A DNA stretch of 64,000 nt, from contig JPOM01000001.1 in assembly GCA_000733915.1 (NCBI GenBank), positions 1,798,001-1,862,000 of the forward strand, given 5' to 3'. The notes below the pieces were generated by a model. That model was not told the DNA's origin. It made no database searches and saw only the letters and a program-made list of their open reading frames with translations. Within the stretch, counting starts at the first letter, position 1, and each line of letters starts with the position of its first letter. Shown piece by piece: positions 949 through 18,718 of the stretch. The DNA is from Caulobacteraceae bacterium PMMR1 (GTDB lineage Bacteria > Pseudomonadota > Alphaproteobacteria > Caulobacterales > Caulobacteraceae). The translations under genes and the position numbers were made by a program.

Positions 949-1006
949 GCCCCGCACGTGGGCGAGGGCGGGTCGCGGCGACGGGGGCAGGGACGCCCCC
1001 CGAGCG

Positions 1007-2461
1007 TCAGCCCTTGATCGCCCCCGCCAGATACTTGGCGACGCCCTCGCCATAGGGCGGGCGAAGCGCCTGCATCGGGCCGAGGTCCTTCTTCAGCTGG
1101 GTGTAGATCGCCCGGCGATGGCTGAACTCCTTGAAGCCGTCGTGGCCGTGGTAGGCGCCCATGCCCGAGGGCCCGACGCCGCCGAAGGGCAGCTCCTCCT
1201 GCGCCACGTGGAAGACGACGTCGTTGATCGTCACCCCGCCGGAGAGGGTGCGGGACAGCACGCGCTCGCGCTCCTCGGCGTCGGCCCCGAACCAGTAGAG
1301 CCCGAGCGGGCGGTCGTGGGCGTTGACGTAGTCGATCGCCTCCTCGACCTGGCGATAGCTCTTCACCGGCAGCACGGGGCCAAAGATTTCCTCCTGCATG
1401 ACCTTCATGTCGTCGGTCGGGTTCAGGACCAGCGTCGGCGGGATCTTGCGGTGCTCCTGCTGGCGGAAGTCCTCGCCGGCGGGGTTGATCTCCATGATCT
1501 CGGCGCCCTTGGCGCGGGCGTCCTCGAGGTAGCCCTGGATGCGGTCGTAGTGCCGTTGCGCCACCACGGCGGTGTAGTCGGGGTTGTCGCGGATCGTCGG
1601 GAACATGCGCGCCACCGCCTGGCGGCTCTGGTCGACGAACTCGCCGATCCGGTCGTCGGGGGCGATGACATAGTCGGGGGCCAGGCAGATCTGGCCCGCG
1701 TTCAGCGTCTTGCCCGCCATGATGCGCGCCGCGGCGGTCTCCATGTCCGCCGAGCGGGACAGGATCACCGGGCTCTTCCCGCCGAGCTCCAGCGTCACCG
1801 GGACGAGGTTCTCGGCTGCGGCGCGCATGACATGGCGCCCGACCGAGGTCGCGCCGGTGAAGATCAGGTGGTCGAAAGGCAGGCCGGCGAAGGCGGAGCC
1901 CACCTCCGGCCCGCCGGTCACGACCGCGATCTCGTCCTCGCCGAAGGCGGAGCGGAACATCTGGGCCAGCAGCTCGGAGGTGGCGGGCGTGTGCTCCGAC
2001 GGCTTGATCATGGCCCGGTTGCCGGCCGCCAGTATGCCGGCGAGCGGGGCGAAGGTCAGGTTGACCGGGAAGTTCCAGGGGCTGATCACACCGACCACGC
2101 CCTTGGGCTGCCAGCGGATTTCCGCCTTGGCCCCGAGCAGGCCCAAAAGCGCCGGGGTCGTCTTGCGCCGCTCGGACCGCATCCACTTGGCGAGGTTGTC
2201 GCGGGCGTGCTTCAAAGGCCCGATCGAGCCCGCGATGTCGGTCACCGCGGTCACCTGGGGCGCGCGGCAGCCGAAGTCTGCGTTCAGCGCCGCTTCGATC
2301 TTCGCGCGGTTGTCGACCAGCAGGGCGATGCAGCGGTTCAGCCGGTCAATGCGCCGTTCGGCCGAGGGCGCTCCCTCGCGCAGCTGGGCCGCCTTCTGCG
2401 CCTCCAGGATGCGCAGGAGCGGGGTCTTGACGTCGAGGGTGTCGAACTGCGGCGCGTCCAT
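1007..2461 (-). CDS. coniferyl-aldehyde-type NAD(P)-dependent aldehyde dehydrogenase
   Basis: Oxidises an aldehyde to its carboxylic acid with NAD(P)+. The 484-residue protein has the aldehyde dehydrogenase fold signatures: cofactor loop FTGATSVG (201-208), general base Glu225 in LELGGKSP, catalytic Cys259 in NAGQIC, and the oxyanion region around SPWNFP (127-132). The sequence around the catalytic cysteine (GQICLAPDYV) and the compact length place it in the class 3 / coniferyl aldehyde dehydrogenase (CalB-like) group; the true substrate is not determined by sequence. It is divergent from the GGDEF gene, with 174 bases between the two starts. Confidence 0.93.
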   Translation of the reverse strand: MDAPQFDTLDVKTPLLRILEAQKAAQLREGAPSAERRIDRLNRCIALLVDNRAKIEAALNADFGCRAPQVTAVTDIAGSIGPLKHARDNLAKWMRSERRKTTPALLGLLGAKAEIRWQPKGVVGVISPWNFPVNLTFAPLAGILAAGNRAMIKPSEHTPATSELLAQMFRSAFGEDEIAVVTGGPEVGSAFAGLPFDHLIFTGATSVGRHVMRAAAENLVPVTLELGGKSPVILSRSADMETAAARIMAGKTLNAGQICLAPDYVIAPDDRIGEFVDQSRQAVARMFPTIRDNPDYTAVVAQRHYDRIQGYLEDARAKGAEIMEINPAGEDFRQQEHRKIPPTLVLNPTDDMKVMQEEIFGPVLPVKSYRQVEEAIDYVNAHDRPLGLYWFGADAEERERVLSRTLSGGVTINDVVFHVAQEELPFGGVGPSGMGAYHGHDGFKEFSHRRAIYTQLKKDLGPMQALRPPYGEGVAKYLAGAIKG

Positions 2462-2554
2462 TCCAGTCGTTCTCCCAATGCTTTAGCCGGTCAAGCTACC
2501 AATCTTGAGGGGATAGTCTGATCTCTTGCTGGAGAAGCGGCAAGTCTTTGCGTC

Positions 2555-2560
2555 TTAACC
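2555..2560 (+). promoter_or_regulatory. possible CtrA half site upstream of GGDEF gene
   Basis: The intergenic region between the divergent aldehyde dehydrogenase and GGDEF genes contains TTAACC, followed at the correct N7 spacing by TTTG rather than TTAA. This resembles one good and one poor half of the Caulobacter CtrA box (TTAA-N7-TTAA). It lies about 75 bases before the GGDEF start. A single half site can occur by chance, so this is only suggestive. Confidence 0.3.
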
Positions 2561-2635
2561 CTGCATTTGGCTCTTTGCTTTAGACGTGCGCTGACACGCG
2601 GCACCGAACGTCGACGATAAGGGTTTTCAAGCGCC

Positions 2636-3703
2636 ATGACCGCTGAAGTCGAGATCTCCGTCCGAGGTCCGGAAGCCTATATCCTTGCGCGTCGGGCTGT
2701 CGAGCAGATGGAGGCGCACCAGGTCTGGCCGACGCCGCTTAATTTCGAGCTGTGGCTGCACTATGTCGGCAACCCGGAGGGCGCGCTCGGCCAGGAGATC
2801 CAGGCGCTTCTGAAAGCGGGAGAGACGATCATCGACTCCGTCAGCGAGATGCTGGCCCACAAGCACCTGCCGCGCTTCCGCCTGAACGATGAGATTCGTG
2901 ACGCCGGCGACCGTCTGAGCGCCCAGCTCGAGAGCGTCGCCCGCGCGGTCGAGACCGCCCAGCGCTCCAGCGCGGCCTACGGCAAGACCCTGGACGGCGC
3001 TCAGCGCCAACTCGACGACGCGGTGGAGCCCCTCGCCTTGCAGCGCCTCGTGGAGGGCCTGTCTGTTGCGACGCAGCGGGTGCAGCGCGAGAACGCCACG
3101 CTCCAAGACCGCCTGCAGTCCTCCACCGAGGAGGTGCGGCGCCTGCGCGAGCACCTGGAGCAGGTGCGTCGGGACGCCATGACCGACGCCCTGACCAATC
3201 TCGCCAACCGAAAGGCCTTCGACGAGGGGCTGAACAAGTTCTGCCAAGAGGCTGAGGGCGCGGGTCGCACCGTCACCCTGGCGGTGATCGACATCGACCA
3301 TTTCAAGCGGTTCAACGACACCTGGGGCCACCAGACCGGCGACCAGGTGCTGCGCTATGTGGCGAACGTCATCGGCCGCGTGGGCGAGCCGCCGCGCCTG
3401 GCCGCCCGCTACGGCGGCGAGGAGTTCGCGATCCTGTTCCCGGGGGAGCGCGCCGCCAAGGTCGCCAAGATGCTGGACGGCGTGCGCGAAGAAATCAGCT
3501 CGCGCCTGCTCAAGCGGCGCTCCACCCACGAGAACCTCGGCGCGGTCACCGTGTCGATGGGGGTGGCCGAGCTGCACGCGGGCGAACCGCCGGCCTCGCT
3601 GGTCGAACGCGCCGACGCGGCCCTCTACGTCTCCAAGCGCACCGGCCGCAACCGCGTCACCAACGCCGAGCTCGCGCGCAAGTCGGCAGTCCAGGCCGCC
3701 TGA
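2636..3703 (+). CDS. GGDEF-domain diguanylate cyclase, cytosolic
   Basis: Predicted to make cyclic di-GMP from two GTP. The 355-residue protein has no signal peptide or membrane segment. Residues 1-185 are a helical region with a likely coiled coil just before the catalytic domain (QRVQRENATLQDRL and onward); residues 185-345 form the GGDEF domain with an intact active-site loop RYGGEEF near residue 260 and a metal-binding DIDHFKRFND. The allosteric I-site RxxD expected five residues before GGEEF reads EPPR, so product inhibition through this site is probably absent. The layout recalls Caulobacter DgcB, but orthology is not proved. Confidence 0.9.
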   Translation: MTAEVEISVRGPEAYILARRAVEQMEAHQVWPTPLNFELWLHYVGNPEGALGQEIQALLKAGETIIDSVSEMLAHKHLPRFRLNDEIRDAGDRLSAQLESVARAVETAQRSSAAYGKTLDGAQRQLDDAVEPLALQRLVEGLSVATQRVQRENATLQDRLQSSTEEVRRLREHLEQVRRDAMTDALTNLANRKAFDEGLNKFCQEAEGAGRTVTLAVIDIDHFKRFNDTWGHQTGDQVLRYVANVIGRVGEPPRLAARYGGEEFAILFPGERAAKVAKMLDGVREEISSRLLKRRSTHENLGAVTVSMGVAELHAGEPPASLVERADAALYVSKRTGRNRVTNAELARKSAVQAA

Positions 3704-3795
3704 GGCGAAGAAAGTCGTCGCCTTGACGTAAGGGCGCGGCTTTTCGGGGCCGCTCGGGCGTGCCTATGCTTCCCCAGAGGGACCGGGAGGCCGCC

Positions 3796-4596
3796 ATGGA
3801 CTATGCCAAGATCAAGACCGCGCAGGACGGCGCAGTTCTGACCATCGCGCTGAGCGACCCCGCCACCCTGAACGCGGCGGGCATCGACCTGGCCAAGGAG
3901 CTGACCCACGTTCTCCAGCGCGTCGAGAGCGGCGACCTGGCCGCGCGCGCGATCGTGCTGACCGGCGAGGGCCGGGGGTTCTGCTCGGGCGCGAACCTGC
4001 AAGCGGGGCCTGGCGGCGGGGCGGTGGACGCCGACGGAAAGCCGGACGCCGGCGCGGCGCTCCAGGCCGTCTACAATCCCCTGATGACCGCCATGCGCGA
4101 TCTGCCCGTGCCGCTCGTGACGGCGGTGAACGGGGCCGCAGCAGGCGTCGGGTGCTCCATCGCGCTCATGGGCGACCTGATCGTGGCGGCGGAGAGCGCC
4201 TACTTCCTGCAGGCGTTCCGGCGCATCGGCCTGGTGCCCGACGGCGGCTCGACCTACCTCTTGCCCCGCATGATCGGGCGCGCCCGGGCCATGGAGATGG
4301 CGCTGCTGGGCGAGAAGCTGCCGGCGAGGACCGCGCTCGATTGGGGCCTGATCAACCGGTGCGTCCCGGATGCAGAGCTGATGTCGACCGCTCGCGCCCT
4401 GGCGCAGGAGCTGGCGCAAGGGCCGAAGTCGCTGGCCCTGATCCGCCGCCTCATGTGGGAGAGCCTCGACGCAGACTGGACGCGCCAACTGCACGCCGAG
4501 CGCCAGGCCCAGCGCACTGCCGGCAAGACCGAAGACTTCCGAGAGGGCGTCGCCGCCTTCCTGCAGAAGCGCCCGGCGGCCTTCAAGGGCGCTTGA
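3796..4596 (+). CDS. enoyl-CoA hydratase/isomerase family protein
   Basis: Crotonase-fold enzyme of 266 residues, probably hydrating or isomerising an enoyl-CoA in fatty-acid or aromatic-acid degradation. The CoA/oxyanion-hole segments are visible as GRGFCSGANL and VNGAAAGVGCSIALMGD, and the DG pair in RIGLVPDGGSTYLL matches the PaaG/PaaB-like subgroup (2,3-dehydroadipyl-CoA hydratase or ring-epoxide isomerase) better than the two-glutamate hydratase EchA. The start at 3796 follows GGGAGG with a 5-base spacer and is preferred to an ATG at 3760. No other catabolic genes flank it. Confidence 0.88.
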   Translation: MDYAKIKTAQDGAVLTIALSDPATLNAAGIDLAKELTHVLQRVESGDLAARAIVLTGEGRGFCSGANLQAGPGGGAVDADGKPDAGAALQAVYNPLMTAMRDLPVPLVTAVNGAAAGVGCSIALMGDLIVAAESAYFLQAFRRIGLVPDGGSTYLLPRMIGRARAMEMALLGEKLPARTALDWGLINRCVPDAELMSTARALAQELAQGPKSLALIRRLMWESLDADWTRQLHAERQAQRTAGKTEDFREGVAAFLQKRPAAFKGA

Positions 4597-4599
4597 GGC

Positions 4600-5232
4600 T
4601 CATCGGGCGGGCGGGACCGCCGCCTCGGTCCAGGCCGCCACGTCCGCGATCACCTGGCCCGCGGCCGCGTCGAACGCCTGGACCACCGCCCCGGCGCGGT
4701 TCTCCGCCGCGGGCTGGCGCGCCGCGAAGGTCCGCTCGTCCAGGATCGAACCGTCCGGGCGCGAGAGCCGGGCCCGCATGACGATCACCACCGTGGGCGG
4801 GGCGCCCGGGCTCGCATAGCGCGCCTCGAAGCTGCGCCCGTCGAGCCTGAGCAGGGCGCCGGCCTTGGCGATGTCCCCCCGGTGCAGCAGCCGCACGCGC
4901 CGCGCCCGCGCTTCGAACGCCCGCTCCAGCGCGTCCTGGAAGAGCGAGGGCGCCGGCGCCGTCCAGCGCGCCCCTCCGATGTAGGCGGCCTGGTTGCCGG
5001 TGAAGGTCAGGATGCCGTCTCCGGCCTCGGCCCGCGGGAGACTGACCCCCTGCAGCACCACGCCGACCTGCGACGCCGCCGAGCCGGGCGGCGCGGCGGC
5101 CGCGCCCTCCCCGCCTCCGGTAGGCGTGAGGCCGAAGGCGTAGAGCTGGGCGGGCGGCGTCTTGGGAAAGACCGAGATGCAGCCGGCGAGCAGCAGCGGC
5201 GCGGCCACAAGGGCGAGGGCGGGACGCCTCAT
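4600..5232 (-). CDS. ABC-type transport auxiliary lipoprotein (PqiC/MlaC-like role)
   Basis: A 210-residue lipoprotein: the N-terminus MRRPALALVAAPLLLAGC ends in a clear LAGC lipobox with Cys18. It belongs to the ABC_trans_aux (DUF330) family that accompanies MCE transporters and is thought to sit on the outer membrane or in the periplasm as partner of the MCE protein. It is the last gene of the Mla-type operon; its start overlaps the stop of the MCE gene (ATGA), which suggests translational coupling. Confidence 0.88.
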   Translation of the reverse strand: MRRPALALVAAPLLLAGCISVFPKTPPAQLYAFGLTPTGGGEGAAAAPPGSAASQVGVVLQGVSLPRAEAGDGILTFTGNQAAYIGGARWTAPAPSLFQDALERAFEARARRVRLLHRGDIAKAGALLRLDGRSFEARYASPGAPPTVVIVMRARLSRPDGSILDERTFAARQPAAENRAGAVVQAFDAAAGQVIADVAAWTEAAVPPAR

Positions 5233-6167
5233 GGCTTCAGCTCCACGGTGCGGGCGGGGGCTTTGGAGATCAGCCCCCTGGGGTTCTGCTCGATGTCGCC
5301 GACGACCCGGTCCAGCGACTCCGCCGCCTGCTGCAGGGCGATGACCGCGCGGGTCAGCTGCGGCAGACCGGTGGTGGCGAAGTCGGTCGTGGGGCCCTGC
5401 AGCTTGCCGACGATGCCCCGCACGTCGGTCGCTGCGCCCTTGATCTCGGCGGCTGCGTCCGAGGCGTTGCGCACCGCCAGCTTCACATCGCCGTTCATGA
5501 TCCGGTCGGCGTCGTCGGTGAGCCGGCCGATCTTCTGGGCGGTCAGGTCGGCGGTGCGGATGGTGCGGTCGAGGTCGTCGATCATCTGCTTGCGGCTGCG
5601 CAGCGTCGTCGTGATGTCGTGCACATCCTCAAGCGTGCCCGACAGCTGGGCGATGTTGCGGTCTGAGAGCACGCGGTTGACCCGGTCCAGAGCGTCGACT
5701 GTGCGCGCCAGCACATCGCCGCCCCCCTGCAGCAGCCCCTCCAAGGCGCCGACCTTGGTGCGGATCACGGGGATCTGGTTTGGGGGCGTCACGTCCCGGA
5801 GCAAGGGCTTGGACGTCGTGCCCGCCGTGATCTGGATATAGTTGACGCCCGTCACCCCGAGCGGTTCCAGGCTGCCGTAGGAGTCCACGCGCACGGGGGT
5901 GTCGGCCGTGGTGCGGATGCGCGCCACGACCCGGTTCGGATTGGCCTTGTCCAGGCTGAGCTTGGTGACCTCGCCGACCTTGATGCCGTTGAAGAACACC
6001 TGGCCCCCGGCCGACAGGCCGCGCACCGGCCCGGCGAAGTCGACGTCGTAGAGCGAGTACTGGGCGGCGAACTGCACCTTCGCCAGCCAGATGGCGAAGA
6101 CCGCTGCGCCCACGAAGATCATGAGCGAGATCAGGCCCACCAGGGCGTAGTGCGCATTGCGCTCCAT
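5229..6167 (-). CDS. MlaD-family MCE protein of lipid ABC transporter
   Basis: Periplasmic substrate-binding component of a phospholipid ABC transporter. The 312-residue protein has one N-terminal membrane helix (residues 9-28, ALVGLISLMIFVGAAVFAIW) followed by a single MCE domain (about 38-115: FAGPVRGLSAGGQVFFNGIK, then PLGVTGVNYIQI) and a long C-terminal helical part that is expected to form the central tunnel of the hexamer. It is third in a four-gene operon, abutting the ATPase gene. It is longer than E. coli MlaD (about 183 residues) and more like the PqiB/MlaD-with-helical-tail alphaproteobacterial type. Confidence 0.92.
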   Translation of the reverse strand: MERNAHYALVGLISLMIFVGAAVFAIWLAKVQFAAQYSLYDVDFAGPVRGLSAGGQVFFNGIKVGEVTKLSLDKANPNRVVARIRTTADTPVRVDSYGSLEPLGVTGVNYIQITAGTTSKPLLRDVTPPNQIPVIRTKVGALEGLLQGGGDVLARTVDALDRVNRVLSDRNIAQLSGTLEDVHDITTTLRSRKQMIDDLDRTIRTADLTAQKIGRLTDDADRIMNGDVKLAVRNASDAAAEIKGAATDVRGIVGKLQGPTTDFATTGLPQLTRAVIALQQAAESLDRVVGDIEQNPRGLISKAPARTVELKP

Positions 6168-6949
6168 CAGGCGGCTCCTTTGGCGGCGGCGCGGCCGCGG
6201 GGGCCCAGGAAATACTCGCGGATCCAGGGATGATCTGAACGCTCAAGCTCGGCAAGGGTCCCGACCGCCGCGATGCGCTTGTCCGCGATCACGCCCACGC
6301 GGTCGCAAAGCGCGTACAGACTATCGAGGTCGTGGGTGATCATGAACACGGTCAGCCCCAATGCGTCGCGCAGGTCCTTGATCAGGGAGTCGAACCCCTC
6401 CGCACCGATCGGGTCCAGGCCAGCGGTGGGCTCGTCGAGGAAGAGGAGCTCGGGGTCCAAGGCCAGCGCCCGCGCCAGGCCGGCGCGCTTGCGCATCCCG
6501 CCGGAGAGTTCCGCCGGCCGCAGCGCTCCCGCCGAGGGCTCAAGCCCCACCAGGGCCAGCTTCAGGTCCGCCACGGCGGCGATCTGGCGACGGCTGAGGC
6601 GCGTGTGCTCATAGAGCGGCGCGGCGACATTGTCGCGCACCGACAGGGAGGAGAACAGCGCCCCGCTCTGGAACAGCACGCCCCACCGGCGCTCCAGGTC
6701 CAATCGCTCATGCTCCGGCGCGCGGTGGACATCCACGCCCAGCACCTCGACGGAGCCGCCGTCGGGCTCCTTGAGGTCGATGACGGTGTTCAGCAGCACC
6801 GACTTGCCCGCGCCCGACCCGCCCACCAGGCCGAAGATTTCGCCGCGCTCGACCGTGAGGTCCAGGCCATCGTGCACCAGATGATCGCCGAAGCGCGAGA
6901 CAAGCCCGCGCACCTGCACGGCCGGGGTCTGGTCGCGCGGCCCGCTCAC
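6167..6949 (-). CDS. MlaF-like ABC transporter ATP-binding protein
   Basis: Cytosolic ATPase that drives the MCE-type lipid transporter. The 260-residue protein has all ABC elements: Walker A GGSGAGKS (43-50), Q-loop FQSGALFS (93-100), signature LSGGM (148-152), Walker B LLFLDEPT (168-175) and the switch histidine in MITHDLDS. The FQSGALF Q-loop and SGGMRKR signature are diagnostic for the Mla (Ttg2A) subfamily. It is second in the operon after the permease, with which it shares a 4-base overlap. Confidence 0.94.
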   Translation of the reverse strand: MSGPRDQTPAVQVRGLVSRFGDHLVHDGLDLTVERGEIFGLVGGSGAGKSVLLNTVIDLKEPDGGSVEVLGVDVHRAPEHERLDLERRWGVLFQSGALFSSLSVRDNVAAPLYEHTRLSRRQIAAVADLKLALVGLEPSAGALRPAELSGGMRKRAGLARALALDPELLFLDEPTAGLDPIGAEGFDSLIKDLRDALGLTVFMITHDLDSLYALCDRVGVIADKRIAAVGTLAELERSDHPWIREYFLGPRGRAAAKGAA

Positions 6950-8070
6950 AGGCCGATCGCCAGGAAGAGCACGGCGAAGACCGCGTCCACCAGAATGATG
7001 GCGAAGATCGCCTGCACCACCGAGCTCGTGACCCGGCGGCCGAGCTGCTCGACGTCGCCCCCGACCTCGAAGCCTTGCCGGCAGCCGATCGCGGCGATGA
7101 TCACCGCCAGCACCGGCGCCTTGACCATGCCGAGCCAGAAGTGGCGGATGCCGACGTTGTCGAGCAGGCGCTGCAGGAAGAAGGCGGGGCTAAGGCCCAC
7201 CACCGTCCAGACCACCAAGATGCCGCCCGCCAGGCCCGAGATCATAGCCACGAAGGTCAGCAGGGGCTCCATCAGAAGCATCGCCACGAAGCGGGGCAGG
7301 ACCAGGGCCTCGAAGGGGTCCACGCCGATCACCTGCATGGCGTCAACCTCCTGGTTCATCTTCATGGCCCCCAGTTCGGCGGCGAAGCTCGACCCGGATC
7401 GGCCGGCCAGGAGCACCGCGGTGATCAGGACGCCGAACTCGCGCAGCACCGCCACCCCGATCAGCTCCACGGTGAAGATTTGGGCGCCGAACTGGGCCAG
7501 CAGGTCCGCCCCCAGGAACGCGATGGTCGCGCCGACGAACAGGTTCGTGATGGCCACGATGGGCAAGGCGTCCAGGCCCGCCCGCTCCATCAGCGCCGTC
7601 GTGGGCGCAAGGCGGAACCGGCTCGGGTGCACGGCCAGCCGCGCCAGCGCCGCCAGCAGACGGCCGTAGAAGGCGAAGGTGTAGAAGGCGTCAACGAGGA
7701 AATGCACCGTGCCATGGCCGAGCCGCTCCAGCACGTGCCAGTCGTGGCGGCGCTCGGCGGGCTTGGGCGCGGGCCCGTCCGCCTGCTCGGGGTAGCGGGC
7801 CTCGACCAGAGCGAGCAGGCGCGCGACATCGGGCCGGGCGTCGAGGCCGGACGTCTGGGGCGTCGCCCGCCCCTGCCGGGCCAAGACCAGGGCGCCGGAG
7901 GTGTCGAACCGCCCGAGCCCGCTGAGATCCAGGCGCCCTGCGACCTCGCCCCTCAACGCGGCCGCCAGTCGTTCGGGCGCCCGTCCAAGGCCGGTCGCGG
8001 TCCAATCGCCCGTCAGCGCCAGGACCGGCTCGCGACGCCCCTCGATCCTGAAGTCCGCCGGCTGGTCCAT
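6946..8070 (-). CDS. MlaE-family permease with N-terminal STAS domain
   Basis: Inner-membrane permease of the lipid transporter, 374 residues. Residues 1-100 form a STAS-like domain (DLSGLGRFDTSGALVL), fused to an MlaE permease domain whose hydrophobic helices begin near residue 130; conserved MlaE motifs are visible (REFGVLITAVLLAGRSGSSFAAELG and MKMNQEVDAM). In E. coli the STAS role is a separate protein (MlaB); the fusion is usual in alphaproteobacteria. The ATG at 8070 follows GGCGGAGG with a short spacer; the ATG at 8130 would add 20 unrelated residues. First gene of the mlaE-mlaF-mlaD-lipoprotein operon. Confidence 0.92.
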   Translation of the reverse strand: MDQPADFRIEGRREPVLALTGDWTATGLGRAPERLAAALRGEVAGRLDLSGLGRFDTSGALVLARQGRATPQTSGLDARPDVARLLALVEARYPEQADGPAPKPAERRHDWHVLERLGHGTVHFLVDAFYTFAFYGRLLAALARLAVHPSRFRLAPTTALMERAGLDALPIVAITNLFVGATIAFLGADLLAQFGAQIFTVELIGVAVLREFGVLITAVLLAGRSGSSFAAELGAMKMNQEVDAMQVIGVDPFEALVLPRFVAMLLMEPLLTFVAMISGLAGGILVVWTVVGLSPAFFLQRLLDNVGIRHFWLGMVKAPVLAVIIAAIGCRQGFEVGGDVEQLGRRVTSSVVQAIFAIILVDAVFAVLFLAIGL

Positions 8071-8377
8071 GCGCCTCCGCCCTGAGCCTTGGCCGTAAAG
8101 CACAGGGCCGCCTGAGGTTGCCAGCTTCATGCGTCGCGCGGAACCCGGACGCGGGCGCCGCGTTACGCAAGTTGTCGACGGGGGGCGTCCTCCGCGGACC
8201 GCTGAGCTGTGGTCCGCGCCCGCGACCCTGCGACCCGCTACTCTCGACCCGGGGCATCTAAGCCGCGGTGCGCGAGACTACTCGCACGTGTCGTTTGCTA
8301 TGAGTGTCGATCCTGTGCTTGCCGACAAGTATCACGAACAGTTCAGCGGGGAACTCTGAGCGTATTGGATCGTTGCG
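8071..8377. other. divergent intergenic region between Mla operon and GT-Glf gene
   Basis: About 307 bases without a convincing gene. It must hold the promoter of the minus-strand Mla operon and that of the plus-strand glycosyltransferase-mutase gene. The right half (about 8280-8400) is less GC-rich than the surrounding DNA, as expected for a promoter, but no clear -35/-10 pair or operator can be assigned. Small open frames crossing it (for example 8129-8359) have no start signal or recognisable product. Confidence 0.5.
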
Positions 8378-10834
8378 ATGCAGAACGTTTCATCGGCTTC
8401 AGTGAGGAAAATGGCCTTGTACGATAAGCACGCCCGCGCCGTGGCGCCCGTTGCGTCCTCGACGATCGTGGCGCCGCCCGTCTTCGGCGATCGCGGGGGC
8501 GACGTCCTGATCTGCTTCAGCCATCTGCGCTGGGACTTCGTGTTCCAGCGGCCCCAGCACCTTCTTTCTCGCTTCGCCAAGGCGCGGCGGGTGATCGTGT
8601 GGGAGGAGCCCATGGCCGCGCCTGGCGGCGCAGGGCCCTCGCTGAAGCAGCATCTGGACGAGAAGACCAACGTCACCGTCGTCCAGCCTCAGCTGCCCCC
8701 CGGCCTGGACGAGGCCGCGAGCGAGGCGACGCTGGAGAGGCTCCTCGACGGTTTCCTGGCCGAGCAGGCCATCAAGAAGCCGGTCGTGTGGTTCTACACG
8801 CCCATGATGCTGCCCTTCGCGCGCAAGCTGACCGACCAGGCCGCAGCCGTCGTGTTCGACTGCATGGACGAGCTGGCCAGCTTCAAGTTCGCGCCGCAGC
8901 GCCTGAAGGACCTGGAGCGCGAGCTTGTCAGCCGCGCCGACGTGGTCTTCACCGGCGGCTATTCGCTCTACGAGGCCAAGCGCGGCTGGCATGCCAACAT
9001 CCACCCGTTCCCCTCGAGCGTGGACCGGGCGCACTTCGCCCAGGCGCGCACCCTGACGCGGGACCCCGAGGACCAAGCCGCCATCCCCCGCCCGCGCCTC
9101 GGCTTCTACGGCGTCATCGACGAGCGGATGGACCTGGAGCTGCTCGCCGCGCTCGCCGACGCGCACCCGGACTGGTCGATCGTCATGGTCGGACCGGTGG
9201 TGAAGATCGACGCCGCAGACCTGCCCCGGCGGGCGAACCTGCATTACCTCGGCGGCAAGTCCTATGCCGACCTGCCGCGCTACCTGTCCGGCTGGGACGT
9301 GGCGCTGATGCCCTTCGCAATCAACGAGAGCACCCGCTTCATCAGCCCGACGAAGACGCCTGAATACCTGGCCGGCGGCCGCCCGGTGGTCTCCACCGCC
9401 ATCGTGGACGTGAAGCGCCACTACGGCGACCTGGAAGGGGTGATCGTCGCCGACACGCACGCCAACTTCATCGCAGGCTGCGAGGCCGCGCTGCAGATGG
9501 CCGAGACCGGCAAGGGCGTCAGCGGCAAGGACTGGCTGGACGAGGTCGACAAGACCCTGGCCGAGCTCTCCTGGGACAACACCTACCAGCAGATGGCGGC
9601 CTTCGTGGACGAGGCCATCGTGCGACGCGACCAGGCCGGGCACCGCGCCAGCGTTCCGGCGCCCGCGGTGATGACCGCCAGCCGGCGCAGCCACTACGAC
9701 GTCCTGGTCGTGGGGGCGGGCTATGCGGGCTCGATCATCGCCGAGCGCCTGGCCGCGGGGTCCAACAAGCGCGTGCTGCTGATCGACCGCCGACCGCATG
9801 TGGCCGGCAACGCCTATGACGTGCACGACGCCGCCGGCGTGCTGATCCACCAGTACGGACCGCATATCTTCCACACCAACTCCGACGAGATCGTGCGCTA
9901 CCTGTCGCGCTTCACCGCGTGGCGGACCTACGAGCATCGGGTGCTGGCGTCGGTCGACGGTAAGCTGGTGCCGATCCCCATCAATCGGACTACGCTCAAC
10001 GCCCTCTATGGCCTGAACCTGACCAGCGACGAGCAGGCCGCCGCCTTCCTGGCCTCCCGCGCCGAGCCGGTGGCGCAGATCAAGACCTCGGAGGACGTCG
10101 TCGTCTCCGCCGTCGGGCGAGAACTCTACGAGAAGTTTTTCCAGGGCTACACCCGCAAGCAGTGGGGCGTGGATCCGTCCGAGCTCGACAAGTCGGTGAC
10201 CAGCCGGGTGCCGACCCGGACCAACACCGACGACCGCTACTTCGGCGACAGCTTCCAGGCGATGCCGAAGCTCGGCTTCACCCACATGTTCGAGAACATC
10301 GTCGACCATCCGAACATCACGATTTCGACCTCTACCGAGTGGGAGGACGTGCGCGACGACGTGCTCTACGACAGGCTGGTCTTCACCGGTCCCGTGGACG
10401 AGTTCTTCGATCACCGCTACGGCCCGCTGCCCTATCGCTCGCTGCGCTTCCAGCACGAAACGCACAATGTGGAGCAGTTCCAGCCGGTGGCGGTGGTGAA
10501 CTATCCGTCGCCGGACGTGCCCTACACCCGCATAAGCGAGTACAAGCACCTGACGGGGCAGAAGCACCCGAAGACCTCGATCACCTACGAGTATCCGAGC
10601 GCCGAAGGCGATCCGTACTATCCGATCCCACGCCCGGAGAACCAGGCGCTCTACAAGAAGTACGAGGCGCTGGCGCTGACTCGACCGGACGTCGCGTTCA
10701 TCGGGCGGCTTGCGACCTACAAGTACTACAACATGGATCAGGTCGCCGGTCAGGCCTTGGCCACTTATCGCAAGGTGCTGGAGCGGGACGCCCTGCCCTC
10801 CTCGCGGGAGGTCACCGCGGCGGCGAGCGCCTGA
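8378..10834 (+). CDS. bifunctional glycosyltransferase / UDP-galactopyranose mutase fusion
   Basis: An 818-residue two-domain protein. Residues about 35-410 resemble a GT-B glycosyltransferase (TuaH-like; VVFDCMDELASFKFAP, then FPSSVDRAHF and ISPTKTPEYLAGGRPVVST near the C-terminal nucleotide-sugar site). Residues about 437-805 are a complete UDP-galactopyranose mutase: FAD motif VVGAGYAGSIIAERLA, the YGPHIFHTN stretch, FFQGYTRKQWG, and the arginine region YTRISEYKHL. The mutase makes UDP-galactofuranose; the transferase could then use it or act in the same polysaccharide. An alternative start at 8411 directly follows GAGGAAA and would remove 11 residues. Fusion, not two genes: the reading frame is continuous. 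Confidence 0.9.
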   Translation: MQNVSSASVRKMALYDKHARAVAPVASSTIVAPPVFGDRGGDVLICFSHLRWDFVFQRPQHLLSRFAKARRVIVWEEPMAAPGGAGPSLKQHLDEKTNVTVVQPQLPPGLDEAASEATLERLLDGFLAEQAIKKPVVWFYTPMMLPFARKLTDQAAAVVFDCMDELASFKFAPQRLKDLERELVSRADVVFTGGYSLYEAKRGWHANIHPFPSSVDRAHFAQARTLTRDPEDQAAIPRPRLGFYGVIDERMDLELLAALADAHPDWSIVMVGPVVKIDAADLPRRANLHYLGGKSYADLPRYLSGWDVALMPFAINESTRFISPTKTPEYLAGGRPVVSTAIVDVKRHYGDLEGVIVADTHANFIAGCEAALQMAETGKGVSGKDWLDEVDKTLAELSWDNTYQQMAAFVDEAIVRRDQAGHRASVPAPAVMTASRRSHYDVLVVGAGYAGSIIAERLAAGSNKRVLLIDRRPHVAGNAYDVHDAAGVLIHQYGPHIFHTNSDEIVRYLSRFTAWRTYEHRVLASVDGKLVPIPINRTTLNALYGLNLTSDEQAAAFLASRAEPVAQIKTSEDVVVSAVGRELYEKFFQGYTRKQWGVDPSELDKSVTSRVPTRTNTDDRYFGDSFQAMPKLGFTHMFENIVDHPNITISTSTEWEDVRDDVLYDRLVFTGPVDEFFDHRYGPLPYRSLRFQHETHNVEQFQPVAVVNYPSPDVPYTRISEYKHLTGQKHPKTSITYEYPSAEGDPYYPIPRPENQALYKKYEALALTRPDVAFIGRLATYKYYNMDQVAGQALATYRKVLERDALPSSREVTAAASA

Positions 10835-10864
10835 GAAGGCTCGCGCCCGCCTGCGCCAGGGGGC

Positions 10865-11680
10865 CTATGGCGCCGGCTTCGCAGCCTGCGCCATGAGGCC
10901 GGCGGCGAGGGCGTCGGTGAACGGGGACCGCGGCCGCTCATCGCCGAGCAGCAGGTCCACCAGCATGGTCTGGGTGCGCAGGCGCTCCAGCCGGCCCGCG
11001 CCGGCGTAGGCGGCGAAGGCGCCCTCGCCCGGATCGTTGGCGATCGGCCCGCCCGCGGCCGGGTTCGGGCCGCCGGTGGCGCTGAGATTGTCGTAGAGTT
11101 CCGACACCGAGACCGGCCGTCCGGCCTTGAAGAACACGCTGCGATTGGACGCGGCCGCGTCGGGGAACAGGCTCGACGCCGGCGCGGCCGGGCGGGAATA
11201 GGCCGCCTCGATCAGCCGAGCCGAGCCCTCCGGCCCCAGGAAGTGCGCCGCATAGAGCTCGCCGCCGGTGGGATTGCGCCCCATGCGCCCGCGCAGGTAG
11301 GCGGCGTGGTCGGAGGCGAGCTCGGCCGCCATGACGGCAGAGGCGTGCGGATCCAGGCGAAGGTCCATGACGGTGCGCCGCGCCTCCTCGCCCCCCGGCA
11401 CCGTCCAGCGCCCGTCCGCGCCCTTGCCGATCAGCTCGGCATAGCGGGCGTAGCCGTGGGCTGGGCCGTGGCGCTTCAGCGTCGCCAGCCAGGTCTGCTC
11501 GGTGAACTGGAACAGCCCCGCGGCGCTGGACGTCGCGGCCTTGGCGTTTGGGTTCAAGCCGCTCTCGCGCTTGGCGGCGTGCAGCAGAAAATCGAAGTCC
11601 ACGCCGGTGGCGTTGGCCGCGCGACGCACGGCCCCCTCCACCATCGCCAGACCGGTCACGACTCCGACGCCCATGGGCAA
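10865..11680 (-). CDS. SLT-domain lytic transglycosylase
   Basis: Predicted peptidoglycan lytic transglycosylase of 271 residues. The soluble lytic transglycosylase domain lies at residues 15-150, with catalytic Glu39 in AAKRESGLNP and the SAAGLFQFTEQTW motif (GLMQ-type) after it. The C-terminal 110 residues are Ala/Pro-rich and unrecognised. No cleavable signal peptide is evident, so export may be non-Sec, or the protein may belong to a specialised assembly such as a flagellum or pilus; this is inference. It converges on the GT-Glf gene, 30 bases away. Confidence 0.82.
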   Translation of the reverse strand: MPMGVGVVTGLAMVEGAVRRAANATGVDFDFLLHAAKRESGLNPNAKAATSSAAGLFQFTEQTWLATLKRHGPAHGYARYAELIGKGADGRWTVPGGEEARRTVMDLRLDPHASAVMAAELASDHAAYLRGRMGRNPTGGELYAAHFLGPEGSARLIEAAYSRPAAPASSLFPDAAASNRSVFFKAGRPVSVSELYDNLSATGGPNPAAGGPIANDPGEGAFAAYAGAGRLERLRTQTMLVDLLLGDERPRSPFTDALAAGLMAQAAKPAP

Positions 11681-11719
11681 TTTCTGCCGGGCGCGTGGTT
11701 AACAGGGCGTTGACAGGCC

Positions 11720-13849
<2,130 letters not shown>

Positions 13850-13929
13850 CTAGCGCGGCGCGGCGCGGAGGGCAGCGGCCTCAGCCGTCCCCGAGCACGA
13901 CGTCGAAGGTCAGCACCTTAGCGGCGGGA

Positions 13930-14505
13930 TCACGGATGCCCCTTGCCGCCTCCCGCGTTATAGACGTTGCCCGTCGTGTAGGTGGCGTCCGCCGCGGCCA
14001 GCTGGACGAAGATCGAGGCCAATTCCGCCGGCTGCCCGGGGCGCTTCAGCGGCGTGCCGCCCCCGAACTGCTCGAGCTTTTCCATCGAGGCGCCGCCAGA
14101 GACCTGCAGCGGAGTCGATATCGGCCCGGGCGCGACGCCGTTCACGCGGATGCCGCGGTCGGCCAGCTGCTTGGCCAGGGAGCGGACGTAGTTGGTCGTC
14201 GCCGCCTTGGTCATGGCGTAGTGGTAGAGTTCCGGGCTCGGGTCCTCGGCCTGCTCCGAGGTGAGGCCGATGATCACGCTGCCGGGCTTCAAGTGAGGCA
14301 GCGCCGCTTTGATGATCCAGAACGGCGCGTAGATGTTGGTCTTCATCGTCGCGTCGAACTCTTCGGTGGAGAGGTCCAGGATCGACGGCGTCTGCTGCTG
14401 GCGACCGGCGTTGCAGACGACGATGTCGAGCCGGATCGTTTCAGTGGCGTCCCAACCCTGGAGTCTCCGCGATGGTTGCGGGGTGCGGGCGGCGCGCCCG
14501 CTCAA
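13930..14505 (-). pseudogene. 5'-truncated short-chain dehydrogenase (YghA-like) remnant
   Basis: The open frame encodes the C-terminal two thirds of an SDR oxidoreductase: RLDIVVCNAGRQQ (about residue 27 onward), the catalytic Ser/Tyr-x3-Lys (SEQAEDPSPELYHYAMTKA) and the PGPISTPL segment. The N-terminal Rossmann part with the TGxxxGIG dinucleotide motif is missing, and the first 25 residues are unlike any SDR, so the protein could not bind NAD(P) normally. Real homology runs from about 14424 down to 13930. The break lies almost at the gmk stop codon. Downstream, 13881-13930 also encodes a short orphan peptide tail in another frame. This looks like a deletion scar between gmk and ligA. Confidence 0.75.
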
Positions 14506-15173
14506 GCGTCCTCGGCCAGGAGCCCGTCGACGAAGGGCTGGAGCCAGGGATTGCGGGCGCGGCGCAGGCGCTCGGCATGGTAGATGTGCGCGAGGTCCGC
14601 ATAGGCGCGGTCGAAGTCGTCGTTCACGATCACATAGTCGTAGGCCTGCCAGCGCTTGATCTCGCCCTTGGAGCGCGCCAGCCGCCGCTCGATCACGTCG
14701 GAGGCGTCCTGGGCGCGGGCGTAAAGGCGCCGTCGCAGGTCCGGCATCGACGGCGGCAGGATGAAGACGCGGACCACATCAGCGGCGGCCTGCTCGGCGA
14801 TCTGCATCCCGCCCTGCCAGTCGATGTCGAACAGCACGTCGCGCCCCGCGGCCAGGGCCTGCATCACCGGCGCGCGAGGACTTCCGTAGCGATGCTCGTG
14901 CACCTCGGCCCACTCCAGGAAGGCGTCCTCGGCGATCAGGGCGTCGAAGCGCTCGCGCGGCACGAAGTAGTACTCCCGGCCCTCCTGCTCGCCGGGGCGG
15001 GGCGCGCGGGTGGTGCAGGAGATCGACAGGCTGAGCTCGGCGTGATCGGCCACCAGACGCCGCGACAGCGAGGTCTTGCCCGCGCCGGAGGGGCTGGAGA
15101 TGACTAGCATGAGGCCGCGCCGGCCCGCGCGCTCGCCCGCTCTCCCCTCGGACGGCCCGCGCTCACTCGACAT
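14502..15173 (-). CDS. gmk: guanylate kinase
   Basis: Phosphorylates GMP to GDP in purine nucleotide synthesis. The P-loop SSPSGAGKTS lies at residues 26-35 and the GMP-binding segment TTRAPRPGEQEGREYYFV follows, with SVSxTTR here as SISCTTR. The ATG at 15173 overlaps the end of yicC by 11 bases and gives 223 residues; starting at 15110 (MLVISSPSG) would give a family-length protein without the charged 21-residue leader. Last gene of the fabD...gmk run. Confidence 0.95.
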   Translation of the reverse strand: MSSERGPSEGRAGERAGRRGLMLVISSPSGAGKTSLSRRLVADHAELSLSISCTTRAPRPGEQEGREYYFVPRERFDALIAEDAFLEWAEVHEHRYGSPRAPVMQALAAGRDVLFDIDWQGGMQIAEQAAADVVRVFILPPSMPDLRRRLYARAQDASDVIERRLARSKGEIKRWQAYDYVIVNDDFDRAYADLAHIYHAERLRRARNPWLQPFVDGLLAEDA

Positions 15174-15828
15174 TCTGCACCTGCTCCCGAAACTGCTCGA
15201 TCACCGCCTTCAGCTTCAGCCCGAGGCCGGTCAGGGCCGTGGACGCGGACTTGGCGCAGAGCGTGTTCGCCTCGCGCATGAACTCCTGGCACAGGAAGTC
15301 CAGCCGCCGGCCCACGCCCGCGCGCTCCGCAGGCAAGGCCGCCAGCAGGGAGGCGAGCGCGGCGCCTTCGGCCCGCCGGGCCTCGCGGAGCCGATCGAAG
15401 GCTTGGGCCAGAAGCGCGGTCGCGGCGTCTTCCAGGCGTGCGCGCGCCTCCGCGCTCGGGGCGGCGTCCTCGGTCTGGATCACGCCCGGAAGCGCCAGCA
15501 GGCCGTCGAAGCGCGGCTTCTCCGCCTTTCCCGCCATCAGATCGGGCCGGGCGGCGGCGAGGTAGGCGTCCAGCCTCGGGGTGTCGATGCGCACACCCTC
15601 GCTCCCGGCCTCGCGGGTCGCCGTCAGGCCCGCGCTGACCTGGCCGCGGGCGAAGCGCGACTGGGCCAGCTCGCGGGCCGCCCGGTCCAGCGCTTCGAAC
15701 CCGGGCGGGGCGCGCAGCCGCACCTTCAGGCTCCGCCCGTTCACCGAGCGCGCCGCGATCGCCAGCGCGACGCCTTCCGCCTCGCCCTCGACCCGGGCGA
15801 AGCCGGTCATGCCGCAGAGCGCGCTCAC
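15163..15828 (-). CDS. yicC: YicC/YloC family endoribonuclease, internally shortened
   Basis: The YicC family is linked to RNA turnover and stationary-phase survival. The N-terminal domain (MTGFAR, then ARSVNGRSLKVRLRAP) and the C-terminal motif GRRLDFLCQEFMREANT...QFREQVQNVE are both well conserved, but the protein is only 221 residues against about 290 for the family. What is absent is the central segment normally found just before GRRLDFL, including the EELDRL(x)SH helix; here AALPAERAG joins directly to VGRRLDFL in frame. About 60-70 residues are missing. The start overlaps the mltG stop (ATGA). Confidence 0.85.
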   Translation of the reverse strand: MSALCGMTGFARVEGEAEGVALAIAARSVNGRSLKVRLRAPPGFEALDRAARELAQSRFARGQVSAGLTATREAGSEGVRIDTPRLDAYLAAARPDLMAGKAEKPRFDGLLALPGVIQTEDAAPSAEARARLEDAATALLAQAFDRLREARRAEGAALASLLAALPAERAGVGRRLDFLCQEFMREANTLCAKSASTALTGLGLKLKAVIEQFREQVQNVE

Positions 15829-16834
15829 CTGCGCGCGGCCCGCTCGATCTTGCGCCAGCGAGCGACGTTGGCCGACTGCTCTTCCAGCGTCCGCGCGAAG
15901 ACGTGCCCGCCCGTGCCGTCGGCGACGAAGTAGAGGTCCTGGGTGTCGGGCGGGTCCAAGACCGCGGCGAGGGACGCGCGCCCCGGATTGTCGATCGGCC
16001 CCGGCGGCAGGCCGGCCTGGACGTAGGTGTTGTAGGGGTTGGGCGACTGGAGCTCCGCCCGGGTCAGGCCGCGGCCGAGCGGCAGTCCGCCGGTCACGCC
16101 GTAGATCACGGTCGGGTCCGCATCGAGCTTCATGCCGATCCTGAGCCGATTCAGATAGACGGCCGCGACGCGGGGACGCTCGGCCGCAAGGCGCGTCTCC
16201 TTCTCCACGATCGAGGCGAGGGTCACGGCCTGCTCGGGGTCGGTGAAGGGCAGCCCGGGCTTGCGGTGCGTCCAGAGCGCAGCCAGCGTGCGGTCGCGGG
16301 CGTCCATCATGCGCTGGAGCACGGCGGAGCGCGTCTCGCCGCGGGTCACCTCGTAGGTCTCGGGCAGGACGGCGCCCTCGGGCGGGGTCGGCGCATCGCC
16401 GGTCAGCACGTCGGACGCGTTCAGGATCGCCATCACCTGCTTGGAGCTCAGCCCCTCGGGGATGGTGATGCGGTGGTGGACGATATCGCCGCTGCGGATC
16501 TTGCGGAGGATCTCGGCCAGGGACGCCCGCGAGGGGATGTCGTACTCGCCGGCCCTGAGGCGGCGCGCCGCGCCGGTCAGCTCGGCGGCGGCGACGAAGA
16601 GCTGGGGCGCGCGGATCACGCCGGCCTGGGCGAGCGCGGCGCCCATGACGTAGACGCCGCTGCCGCGCTTGAGCACCACTGTGGTGCTGTCGCCCCGGCG
16701 CGCGACCGGGCCGGGACCGAAGTAGACGAGGGCGGCCAGGACCGCGCCCAGGACGCTGATCACCGCCAGGGTCACGGCCCCGGCCGCCAGCCCGGCGATG
16801 AGGCTCCGCCCCTGACCTGCGCCGCCCCCGCCAC
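15825..16834 (-). CDS. mltG: endolytic murein transglycosylase MltG (5' frameshift)
   Basis: Inner-membrane endolytic transglycosylase that cuts nascent peptidoglycan and sets glycan length. The YceG fold is clear: catalytic Glu in ASIVEKETRLAAERPRVAAVYLNRL, then LDADPTVIYG and YNTYVQAGLPPGPI. An open frame begins at a GTG at 16775, but that cuts through the single membrane helix. A much better start is the GTG at 16834, 7 bases after the strong ribosome site TGAGGAG, if one base is added to the C5 run at 16825-16829 (plus strand); this restores a basic/Gly leader plus the complete helix SLIAGLAAGAVTLAVISVL and about 336 residues. Either a true frameshift or a dropped base. Confidence 0.85.
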
Positions 16835-16841
16835 GGCGCGG

Positions 16842-16848
16842 CTCCTCA
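16842..16848 (-). promoter_or_regulatory. ribosome-binding site of mltG (TGAGGAG)
   Basis: On the minus strand TGAGGAG lies 7 bases upstream of a GTG at 16834, and its TGA is the stop codon of fabF. This is the best Shine-Dalgarno in the area and points to a start in a frame one base off the downstream mltG frame, which is the main evidence for a frameshift at 16825-16829. Confidence 0.65.
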
Positions 16849-18126
16849 GGCGACCTTGCGGAAGAGCACCGCCGCGTTGGTGCCCCCGAAGCCGAAGCTG
16901 TTGGACAGCGCCACCTCGATCGGCATGGGCTTGGCGATCTTGGGCACGAGGTCGAGCGCCGTCTCCACGTCAGGGTTGTCGAGGTTGATCGTCGGCGGGG
17001 CGATCTGGTCGCGGATCGCGAGCACGGAGAAGATGGCTTCGACCGCGCCGGCCGCCCCCAACAGGTGGCCGGTCATGGACTTGGTCGAGCTCATGGCGAC
17101 CTTGCCCGCCGCATTGCCGAGCAGGCGCTCGACCGCGCCGGCCTCGATGCCGTCGGCCATGGTGGAGGTGCCGTGGGCGTTGACGTAGTCGATGGCGGCG
17201 GGCTCCAGCCGGGCGTCCTTCAGCGCCGCCTTCATGGCGCGGAAGCCGCCGTCGCCGTCCGACGCCGGGGCCGTGATGTGGTAGGCGTCGCCGGACAGAC
17301 CGTATCCCGCCACCTCGGCGTAGATCTTCGCGCCCCGCGCCCGGGCGTGCTCGTATTCCTCGAGCACCAGCACGCCGGCGCCCTCCCCCATGACGAAGCC
17401 GTCCCGGTCCTTGTCGTAGGGCCGCGACGCCGCGTCCGGCCGGTCGTTGAAGGCGGTCGCCATGGCGCGGCAGGCGACGAAGCCCGCGATGCCGAGCTTG
17501 CAGACCGCCGCCTCGGCGCCGCCGGCGATCATCACGTCCGCGTCGCCGTAGCGGATGATCCTTGCCGCATCGCCGATGGCGTGCGCGCCGGTGGCGCAGG
17601 CCGTCACGACGGAATGGTTCGGGCCCTTGAAGCCGTAGCGGATCGAAACGTGGCCGGAGGCCAGATTGATCAGGGCGGAGGGGATGAAGAACGGGCTGAC
17701 GCGGCGGGGCCCCTTGGCCTCCAGCTCCAGAGTGGTCTCAGCGATGGTGTTCAGCCCGCCGATGCCTGAGCCGATGATGACGCCCGTCCGCTCGCGCTGG
17801 CCCTCGTCCTGCGGCGTCCAGCCCGCGTCGCGCACCGCCTCGTCCGCGGCGGCGATGGCGTAGAGGATGAAGTCGTCGATGCGCCGCTGCTCCCGGGGCG
17901 GCAGAACCGCGTCGGGGTCGAACGCCCCCTCGACGTCCGCGCCGCCCCCGCCCCGCCCGTCCACGCGCGGCACCTCGCCGGCGATCTGGCAGGCGTAGTC
18001 GGCGGGATCGAAGGCGGTGATCCGGCCGATGCCCGACTGGCCCGCCAGGATCTTCTTCCAGCTCAGCTCCACCCCGTTCGCGAGGGGCGAAACGAGGCCG
18101 AGGCCGGTGACGACGACGCGACGCAT
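16846..18126 (-). CDS. fabF: beta-ketoacyl-ACP synthase II
   Basis: Condenses malonyl-ACP with acyl-ACP in fatty-acid elongation. The 426-residue protein starts MRRVVVTGLGLVSP and carries the Cys-His-His triad: Cys in VVTACATGAHA, His in VNAHGTSTMADG, and His in KSMTGHLLGAAGAVEA, with the C-terminal glycine-rich SNSFGFGGTNAAVLF. Its position downstream of fabD, fabG and acpP supports FabF rather than a polyketide synthase domain. Confidence 0.96.
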   Translation of the reverse strand: MRRVVVTGLGLVSPLANGVELSWKKILAGQSGIGRITAFDPADYACQIAGEVPRVDGRGGGGADVEGAFDPDAVLPPREQRRIDDFILYAIAAADEAVRDAGWTPQDEGQRERTGVIIGSGIGGLNTIAETTLELEAKGPRRVSPFFIPSALINLASGHVSIRYGFKGPNHSVVTACATGAHAIGDAARIIRYGDADVMIAGGAEAAVCKLGIAGFVACRAMATAFNDRPDAASRPYDKDRDGFVMGEGAGVLVLEEYEHARARGAKIYAEVAGYGLSGDAYHITAPASDGDGGFRAMKAALKDARLEPAAIDYVNAHGTSTMADGIEAGAVERLLGNAAGKVAMSSTKSMTGHLLGAAGAVEAIFSVLAIRDQIAPPTINLDNPDVETALDLVPKIAKPMPIEVALSNSFGFGGTNAAVLFRKVA

Positions 18127-18278
18127 GGTCTTGCGATCCTGGGCTTGCGGTCTGGGTTAGAAGTCGAGGGCTTGCGATCCTGAAGCTTATGTCCTGGATT
18201 TGGGTCCGGGCGGGAGCGCGACCCTCGCCCGGACGGATCCGGAAGCCAGCCCTCGTCCCGCGCGACGCCTTGCCCGGA

Positions 18279-18518
18279 CTACTGGTTCAGACGCTCGTCG
18301 ATGAACTTCACCGCGTCGCCGACAGTCTGGATGTGTTCGGCCGCGTCGTCGGGGATTTCGATGTCGAACTCTTCCTCGAAGGCCATGACCAGCTCGACGT
18401 TGTCGAGACTGTCGGCGCCCAGGTCGTCGATGAAGCTCGCCTTCTCGGTCACCTTTTCCGGATCGGCGTCCAGGTGTTCGATGACGATCTTGCGCACGCG
18501 TTCGAGAGTATCGGACAT
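18279..18518 (-). CDS. acpP: acyl carrier protein
   Basis: Carries growing acyl chains on a phosphopantetheine arm attached to Ser37 of the DSL motif ([18 protein letters not shown]). The 79-residue acidic protein has the expected four-helix pattern and length. It lies between fabG and fabF on the minus strand, with a 200-base leader upstream that may give it its own promoter, as is usual for this highly expressed gene. Confidence 0.97.
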
Positions 18519-18655
18519 TCGGCCAAAGCCCCTTTTGAGTTAGTTCGACTGAGGCGGTCGCTTAAGGCTGATCCGCTTCGTCTGACGGTGATCGCCGCAA
18601 AGCCACAGCGGCGTTTCGACAGGTTCCGCCCACGTCGAGGCGAGGCCTATCACAC

Positions 18656-18680
18656 AAAAATCGGGGCGACTAGCACCCCC
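18656..18680 (-). terminator. weak candidate intrinsic terminator downstream of fabG
   Basis: Read on the minus strand after the fabG stop, a GGGG...CCCC stem with a nine- or ten-base loop is followed by GATTTTT. The stem is short but the T-tract is the only one in the fabG-acpP gap. It could separate fabDG from an independently transcribed acpP, or reduce read-through. Confidence 0.35.
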
Positions 18681-18718
18681 TCTGGAGCGGGCGGCGGCCC
18701 CGCTTGGACCCTCCTGCG

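Follow-up and report, generated by a model that had tools for sequence, protein, structure and literature searches.

Galactofuranose (Galf), a rare sugar with a five-membered ring, is mainly known from the cell walls of mycobacteria, fungi and parasites, and the pathway that makes it is a drug target. In a genome of the Caulobacteraceae, strain PMMR1, a single gene seems to join a UDP-galactopyranose mutase (Glf) to a glycosyltransferase. The gene is located on the forward strand at positions 8378-10834 of the window, by which the whole analyzed stretch of 64,000 nucleotides is meant, and it raises the questions whether both halves are intact, whether they act together, and in which pathway and under which control they might do so.

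One reading frame encodes a glycosyltransferase and a complete mutase

The open frame 8378-10834 has 818 codons and encodes, in one chain, a GT-B glycosyltransferase followed by a complete UDP-galactopyranose mutase. Three Pfam domains were found, i.e., Glyco_trans_1_4 at residues 256-370 (29.0 bits, cut-off 27 bits), an NAD/FAD Rossmann domain (NAD_binding_8) at residues 444-511 and GLF at residues 586-783. The N-terminal GT-B domain, for which a GT4-like retaining fold is predicted, extends from 8510 to 9637 (about residues 45-420) and the mutase domain from 9689 to 10783 (residues 438-802). They are separated by a low-confidence linker (9641-9688, residues 422-437), which is variable and gapped in an alignment of relatives; all three features are on the plus strand. 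The 17 aligned relatives span both domains with identities of 59-77% (51% for one divergent row), and therefore the joint is not a frameshift artifact. The continuous frame with a GT-B transferase and a complete Glf, which had been proposed in a preliminary description, was thus confirmed by the frame itself, by Pfam, by TIGR00031 and by the relatives, while the start codon had to be corrected. The promoter-like motif described below ends at 8374, four bases ahead of the ATG at 8378. In 26 relatives the distance from the GGAAC element to the plausible start downstream is about 53-77 bases, and several of them have in-frame stops between motif and start. Because of the motif at 8350-8374 and of this distance, the likely start was moved to ATG 8411 or TTG 8417; one of these probably is the true start instead of 8378, which would give a protein of 805-807 amino acids.

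The suggested structure prediction was performed with AlphaFold (mean pLDDT 79, pTM 0.51). It yielded two mostly well-folded domains, whereas their arrangement is unreliable at this pTM and with a pLDDT below 50 for the linker 422-437. The idea that UDP-Galf is channeled from one domain to the other was dropped, as the model is too imprecise between the domains. Further low-confidence loops were found in the mutase half at residues 597-613, 682-687, 743-752 and 777-783.

The mutase half retains the residues of characterized enzymes

The fusion scored 362.3 bits against TIGR00031, the equivalog model for UDP-galactopyranose mutase (cut-off 303.75), and 262.9 bits against PF03275 (GLF; cut-off 26.3, E 2.5e-78). 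The nearest solved relative of the mutase half is 3hdq (residues 438-800, 554 bits), and a Foldseek search with the predicted model retrieved 3hdq, 64% identical over 363 columns, and 3mj4. These entries, together with 3hdy and 3he3, are taken to be the mutase of Deinococcus radiodurans. A comparison with the Klebsiella enzyme allowed to map 34 positions in the printed alignment, of which 25 were identical and nine were different (Klebsiella to fusion: F13Y, Q34R, K87L, L175V, N184R, G248P, H284Y, L350Y and D351N). Seven of the nine, including D351N, read as in 3hdq, the exceptions being F13Y and H284Y. The Klebsiella residues H63, Y155, W160, R174 and Y185 correspond to H499, Y591, W596, R610 and Y621 of the fusion, R280, Y314, R343 and Y349 correspond to R718, Y748, R777 and Y783, and the FAD-binding glycines G10 and G15 (Klebsiella numbering) are also kept. 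These residues are presumably the key residues for FAD binding, substrate binding and catalysis. A loss of FAD or active-site residues, which had been named as an argument against the assignment, was thus not found. Judged from its sequence, the C-terminal half is almost certainly a UDP-galactopyranose mutase, and it is the only GLF-family mutase in the genome of PMMR1.

The mutase might also act mainly on another nucleotide sugar, e.g., UDP-GalNAc, and the product would then carry a different furanose. The UDP-N-acetylgalactopyranose mutase of Campylobacter (4mo2) is indeed also related, but it reached only 249 bits, compared to 554 bits for the D. radiodurans UDP-galactopyranose mutase, and this alternative is regarded as very improbable. 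The D. radiodurans mutase shares with the fusion the asparagine at the position of Klebsiella D351 (printed alignment). In contrast to the fusion, it was solved as a separate chain of 397 residues, and in two other Deinococcus species transferase and mutase are encoded by two neighboring plasmid genes.

The transferase half has a GT4-like fold

The transferase half did not resemble any sequence of a solved structure at E 0.1. The best named relative is the teichuronic acid glycosyltransferase TuaH (NF047676), which matched residues 121-407 with 66.1 bits; this is far below the cut-off of 550 bits, and the fusion is not a member of that family. Using the predicted model, Foldseek returned MshA (3c4q, TM 0.71 by target length) and sucrose-phosphate synthase as the closest structures. 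The model thus assigns the half to the GT4-like GT-B transferases with a retaining fold. A donor-site block, SPTKTPEYL, is kept in every row of the 17-relative alignment except that of locus L057, and it is largely invariant in a further comparison. Retaining chemistry with UDP-Galf as donor would yield alpha-Galf, counter to the commonly described Galf transferases, which make beta-Galf, and this speaks against the model favored below.

Transferase and mutase were joined or separated repeatedly

The distribution of the fusion was characterized at several levels. In the family survey a full-length fusion was present in 25 of 199 sampled genomes, that of PMMR1 included, and in one further genome it was split over two contigs (26/199). 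At the class level 19 of 385 genomes passed E 1e-60, 13 of them via the mutase part only; the fusion is therefore rare and patchy. In addition, 104 of 362 matching plasmid records covered at least 80% of the query. Entries for the fusion already exist in databases, and the annotated plasmid records are mostly labeled just “UDP-galactopyranose mutase.” The concern that the fusion might be ubiquitous and already assigned was thus justified only in part: it is widespread but patchy, and a search of open-access papers yielded none that assigns it.

A scan of named genomes from many phyla yielded 322 confirmed loci, and the best 80 were classified with a tblastn script. Transferase and mutase formed one frame in 22 loci, two neighboring genes in 42 and genes further apart in one, while 11 loci had the mutase only and four the transferase only. 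The set was retrieved with an alignment of the fusion and leans towards loci having both parts, and genes in the locus surveys were called by a codon-position GC and length rule, so that some one-frame or two-gene calls may err. When 106 mutase domains were placed in a tree, the state fused or unfused changed 10 times, and at least seven changes were forced by well-supported branches; the tree was made with a quick method, has no known root, carries a long-branch warning and omits the mutase fragment of L158. According to this tree, fusion or fission of the two genes occurred repeatedly. Two kinds of unusual architecture were noted among the surveyed loci. A metagenome-derived fusion (L122:4788-7337) has two FAD-binding Rossmann stretches, which may reflect an internal duplication of part of the protein or an error of assembly. 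Rhizobial cassettes (L147:10025-16769, L155, L157 and L036:11289-16759) contain a transferase gene, with or without fused mutase, which is immediately followed by two further fusion genes, one for a protein of about 1080 residues combining transferase, oxidoreductase and Zn-dehydrogenase and one for a transferase-GH1 protein.

Do the two halves belong to one reaction sequence? It could be argued that the fusion only keeps two pathway enzymes equal, that the transferase uses UDP-Glc, UDP-Gal or UDP-GalNAc as donor, and that a separate Galf transferase exists. The nearest solved folds, MshA and sucrose-phosphate synthase, presumably use donors other than UDP-Galf, and in Agrobacterium and Rhizobium loci the transferase has other transferase domains as neighbors but no mutase. 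However, all four genomes with such a transferase have a mutase elsewhere, whereas in 14 control genomes a mutase of any kind was present in four. Plasmids of Pantoea (L169:6834-10562 and L170:6837-10592) encode a triple fusion, in one case tested (L169) a protein of 1242 residues that consists of a GH1 part (39% identical to the GH1 of Skermanella), the same transferase (50% identical) and a mutase of another type. The solved relatives of the latter are 4dsg and 3ute, which are eukaryotic-type UDP-galactopyranose mutases, and the bacterial TIGR00031 gave only 18 bits. Mutases of the eukaryotic type are only distantly related to the bacterial-type one in the window, and yet one of them is joined to the same transferase and GH1. 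Because two distinct mutase lineages are tied to one transferase, it is suggested that the product UDP-Galf is what matters. The repeated fusion or fission and the replacement in Pantoea point to a dependence of the transferase on the mutase product, so that a different donor appears rather doubtful. A functional coupling of transferase and mutase is considered likely from these sequence comparisons.

GalE and a GH1-RmlD protein are recurrent companions

The fusion gene is flanked by a divergent Mla-type lipid ABC operon (4600-8130, minus strand; auxiliary lipoprotein, MlaD, ATPase and MlaE) on one side and by a DNA ligase gene on the other side. The earlier observation that no polysaccharide genes surround the fusion was thus correct for the immediate neighbors, while likely partners are encoded elsewhere in the genome. 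Of the 26 genomes of the family that have the fusion, 11 also have an MlaE homolog close to it (25 were examined and G039 was left out; some contigs were short). In some lineages an ABC exporter (ABC_membrane and ABC_tran) adjoins the genes, in PMMR1 a lipid transporter does so, and both kinds of neighbors hint weakly at a lipid-linked product. At 15825-21683 the window contains genes for YceG, a ketoacyl synthase, an acyltransferase-domain protein and a DegT aminotransferase; a second DegT match elsewhere in the genome is 68% identical and has one internal stop codon. On contig C1 of the genome, matches in about 1-20000 and 2653561-2673433 recur at an offset of 2653559-2653560, suggesting a terminal redundancy of the assembly of about 20 kb.

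Comparison of neighborhoods in combination with Pfam revealed two recurrent companions of the fusion, an NAD-dependent epimerase, which from its sequence was read as GalE, and a GH1-RmlD fusion protein. GalE adjoins the fusion in several loci. In PMMR1 both are encoded far from the window, GalE with 405 bits (cut-off 262) and GH1-RmlD with 64% identity. Of the 26 genomes with the fusion, 23 had a match at E 1e-40 to GH1-RmlD (17 genomes) or to its GH1 part only (six genomes), compared to none of the 173 others (Fisher p 3e-27, uncorrected for kinship and with at most five candidates scored per genome). The pathway partner of the fusion, which had been described as unknown, could thus be given two candidates from neighborhoods and co-occurrence. 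The three fusion genomes without a match at this threshold were G069, G003 and G024. G069 has a weaker GH1 relative (29% identity) beside the fusion. G003 and G024 have a divergent fusion, 53% identical, in which mutase positions including those of Y591 and Y783 are changed (row L057). The divergent copy (L057:8422-10836 and L058:1206-3620), from two genomes in which GH1-RmlD was not found, has lost several conserved residues of mutase and transferase and possibly contains a repurposed or inactive mutase.

At the class level six genomes had the fusion or parts of it, and GH1-RmlD was found in three of them; a fourth match (G546) comprised the RmlD part only. Among the best 80 loci, the examined stretch included GH1 in 17 of the 22 fused and 25 of the 42 adjacent loci, in two of 11 mutase-only and all four transferase-only loci as well as in the single locus with distant genes; in 22 of the 64 fused or adjacent loci no GH1 above the threshold was found within that stretch. 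On two Deinococcus plasmids (L171 and L172) the transferase-mutase pair lies by genes for a methyltransferase and a GT2 protein with a PIG-L deacetylase gene near, a possible glycan cluster.

A general-stress promoter motif precedes the gene in most alphaproteobacterial loci

The homolog of Ewingella sits among stress genes (manganese catalase, ferritin-like), as was later also seen in Mesorhizobium, and because of this location the general-stress consensus was tested. For EcfG promoters, published texts give the consensus GGAAC-N16-CGTT (PMC3892343, PMC7083833) or GGAAC-N17-20-GTT (PMC6599016). A motif GGAAC-N16-CGTT is present at 8350-8374 (plus strand) upstream of the fusion and is conserved before homologs; such a promoter had not been foreseen in the preliminary description. 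Within 250 bases before the transferase, GGAAC-N17/18-GTT was found in 39 of 51 alphaproteobacterial loci (N17 in 31, N18 in eight), the window not being counted and near-duplicate (L049, L058, L083, L084) or too short (L064) upstream regions being omitted. Spacings of N12-N16 and N22 did not occur in these 51 loci, and N19, N20 and N21 occurred once each. The motif was absent from all 44 non-alphaproteobacterial loci, in which N13 and N21 were found once each. Among 700 control genes called in the same loci, 31 were preceded by it (N17 25, N18 six). A looser first count with N15-18 had given 44 of 56 loci (600 bases) compared to 55 of 819 controls (450 bases). In a further set of 17 loci, which includes near relatives of loci in the first set (Azospirillum, Skermanella, Sinorhizobium) and is thus only partly independent, L182 was dropped as it had no upstream DNA, and 14 of the remaining 16 had the motif (exceptions L202 and L189).

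The loci with motif span the Caulobacteraceae, Sphingomonadales, Rhizobiaceae, Phyllobacteriaceae, Rhodobacterales, Acetobacteraceae and Azospirillaceae. In the 26 relatives the distance of the first base of GGAAC to the start was near-constant (about 53-77 bases), and the upstream DNA around the motif showed little conservation (a mean column identity of 35% in 10 loci). In the genome of PMMR1 NepR was found over the cut-off at two places, and the same motif is located upstream of one copy.

An alternative would be that the motif is incidental and ancestrally inherited, and that an ordinary cell-surface polysaccharide gene lacks stress control. Counts in the single genome were at chance level (27 strict matches compared to 29 in a backward control; four matches compared to 2.3 expected in the window), and because the motif is not enriched genome-wide, the single site in the window draws its whole support from conservation. 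Furthermore, 12 of the 51 loci had no N17/N18 motif, eight of them in the same family (L043, L046, L050, L051, L052, L054, L055, L062). Nevertheless, conservation that is specific for spacing and position across these alphaproteobacterial groups, the absence from non-alphaproteobacterial loci and the poorly conserved surroundings argue against an incidental motif, which is considered improbable. Stress control of the fusion gene in Alphaproteobacteria is considered likely on the basis of these sequence patterns. Before the partner genes the motif was rare (GH1 1/22, GalE 2/13, MlaE 0/8). Mla is not claimed as a carrier of the product, as MlaE was devoid of the motif and the two may be neighbors simply because an ancestral gene order was inherited.

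Discussion

In the favored model, which is considered moderately likely, the fusion would be induced by stress and would act both as UDP-Galf synthase and as Galf transferase, together with GalE and GH1-RmlD. In Alphaproteobacteria, the general-stress sigma factor EcfG (PhyR-NepR) would transcribe the fusion gene. GalE would supply UDP-galactopyranose, the C-terminal mutase would turn it into UDP-Galf, and the tethered N-terminal GT4-like transferase would transfer Galf from UDP-Galf to an acceptor, which probably is a glycoconjugate that is lipid-linked or exported. The GH1-RmlD protein, whose gene lies far from the window, would cooperate with the fusion, so that GalE, mutase, transferase and GH1-RmlD would form a small glycoconjugate pathway. 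The use of UDP-Galf by the transferase, the acceptor, the product, the role of GH1-RmlD and the stress induction are predictions of this model. The previous proposal that the fusion would make UDP-Galf for the transferase is plausible with respect to supply, as a complete Glf and a transferase are predicted in one chain. Much more tentatively, it might be speculated that an alpha-linked Galf glycoconjugate is a general-stress output of Alphaproteobacteria, with the repeatedly evolved fusion as a core and a dedicated GH1(-RmlD) transglycosidase or trimming enzyme, and that the same module is under other regulators in other phyla.

The fusion gene has the promoter motif of the EcfG/PhyR-NepR regulon close before its start, while the main texts found do not name a galactofuranose gene as a member of this regulon. 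The main texts of PMC3892343 and PMC7083833 mention neither a glycosyl- or mutase gene nor a polysaccharide or glucosidase gene, and passages of PMC8103513 concern E. coli RpoE and SigW. Table 1 of PMC6599016 contains an EcfG-dependent “Glycosyltransferase” (#1750) beside “Glycosidases” (#1751). The identity of the two as homologs was not established, and they were not counted as evidence. The label “Glycosidases” usually denotes GH13. No open-access paper was found that combines EcfG and UDP-galactopyranose mutase, and a wider open-access search that linked the mutase to sigma factors, Alphaproteobacteria and stress returned nothing but a phage paper. Nothing on this protein emerged from open-access searches on the fusion, on GH1 clusters, on Galf in Caulobacter, on desiccation or on Rhizobium. 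The idea that cyanobacterial fusions contribute to the heterocyst envelope polysaccharide was dropped, as no open-access paper combining both terms was found. Each domain is known, and the regulatory and pathway context of the fusion is apparently unreported as far as open-access main-text searches reach.

Taken together, the tie between mutase and transferase behind a stress motif leads to a testable role for UDP-Galf in environmental bacteria. An envelope glycan would possibly be added to the outputs of a stress regulon that has many unannotated targets, and the transferase-mutase fusion, GH1-RmlD and GalE are a marker set for seeking the product.
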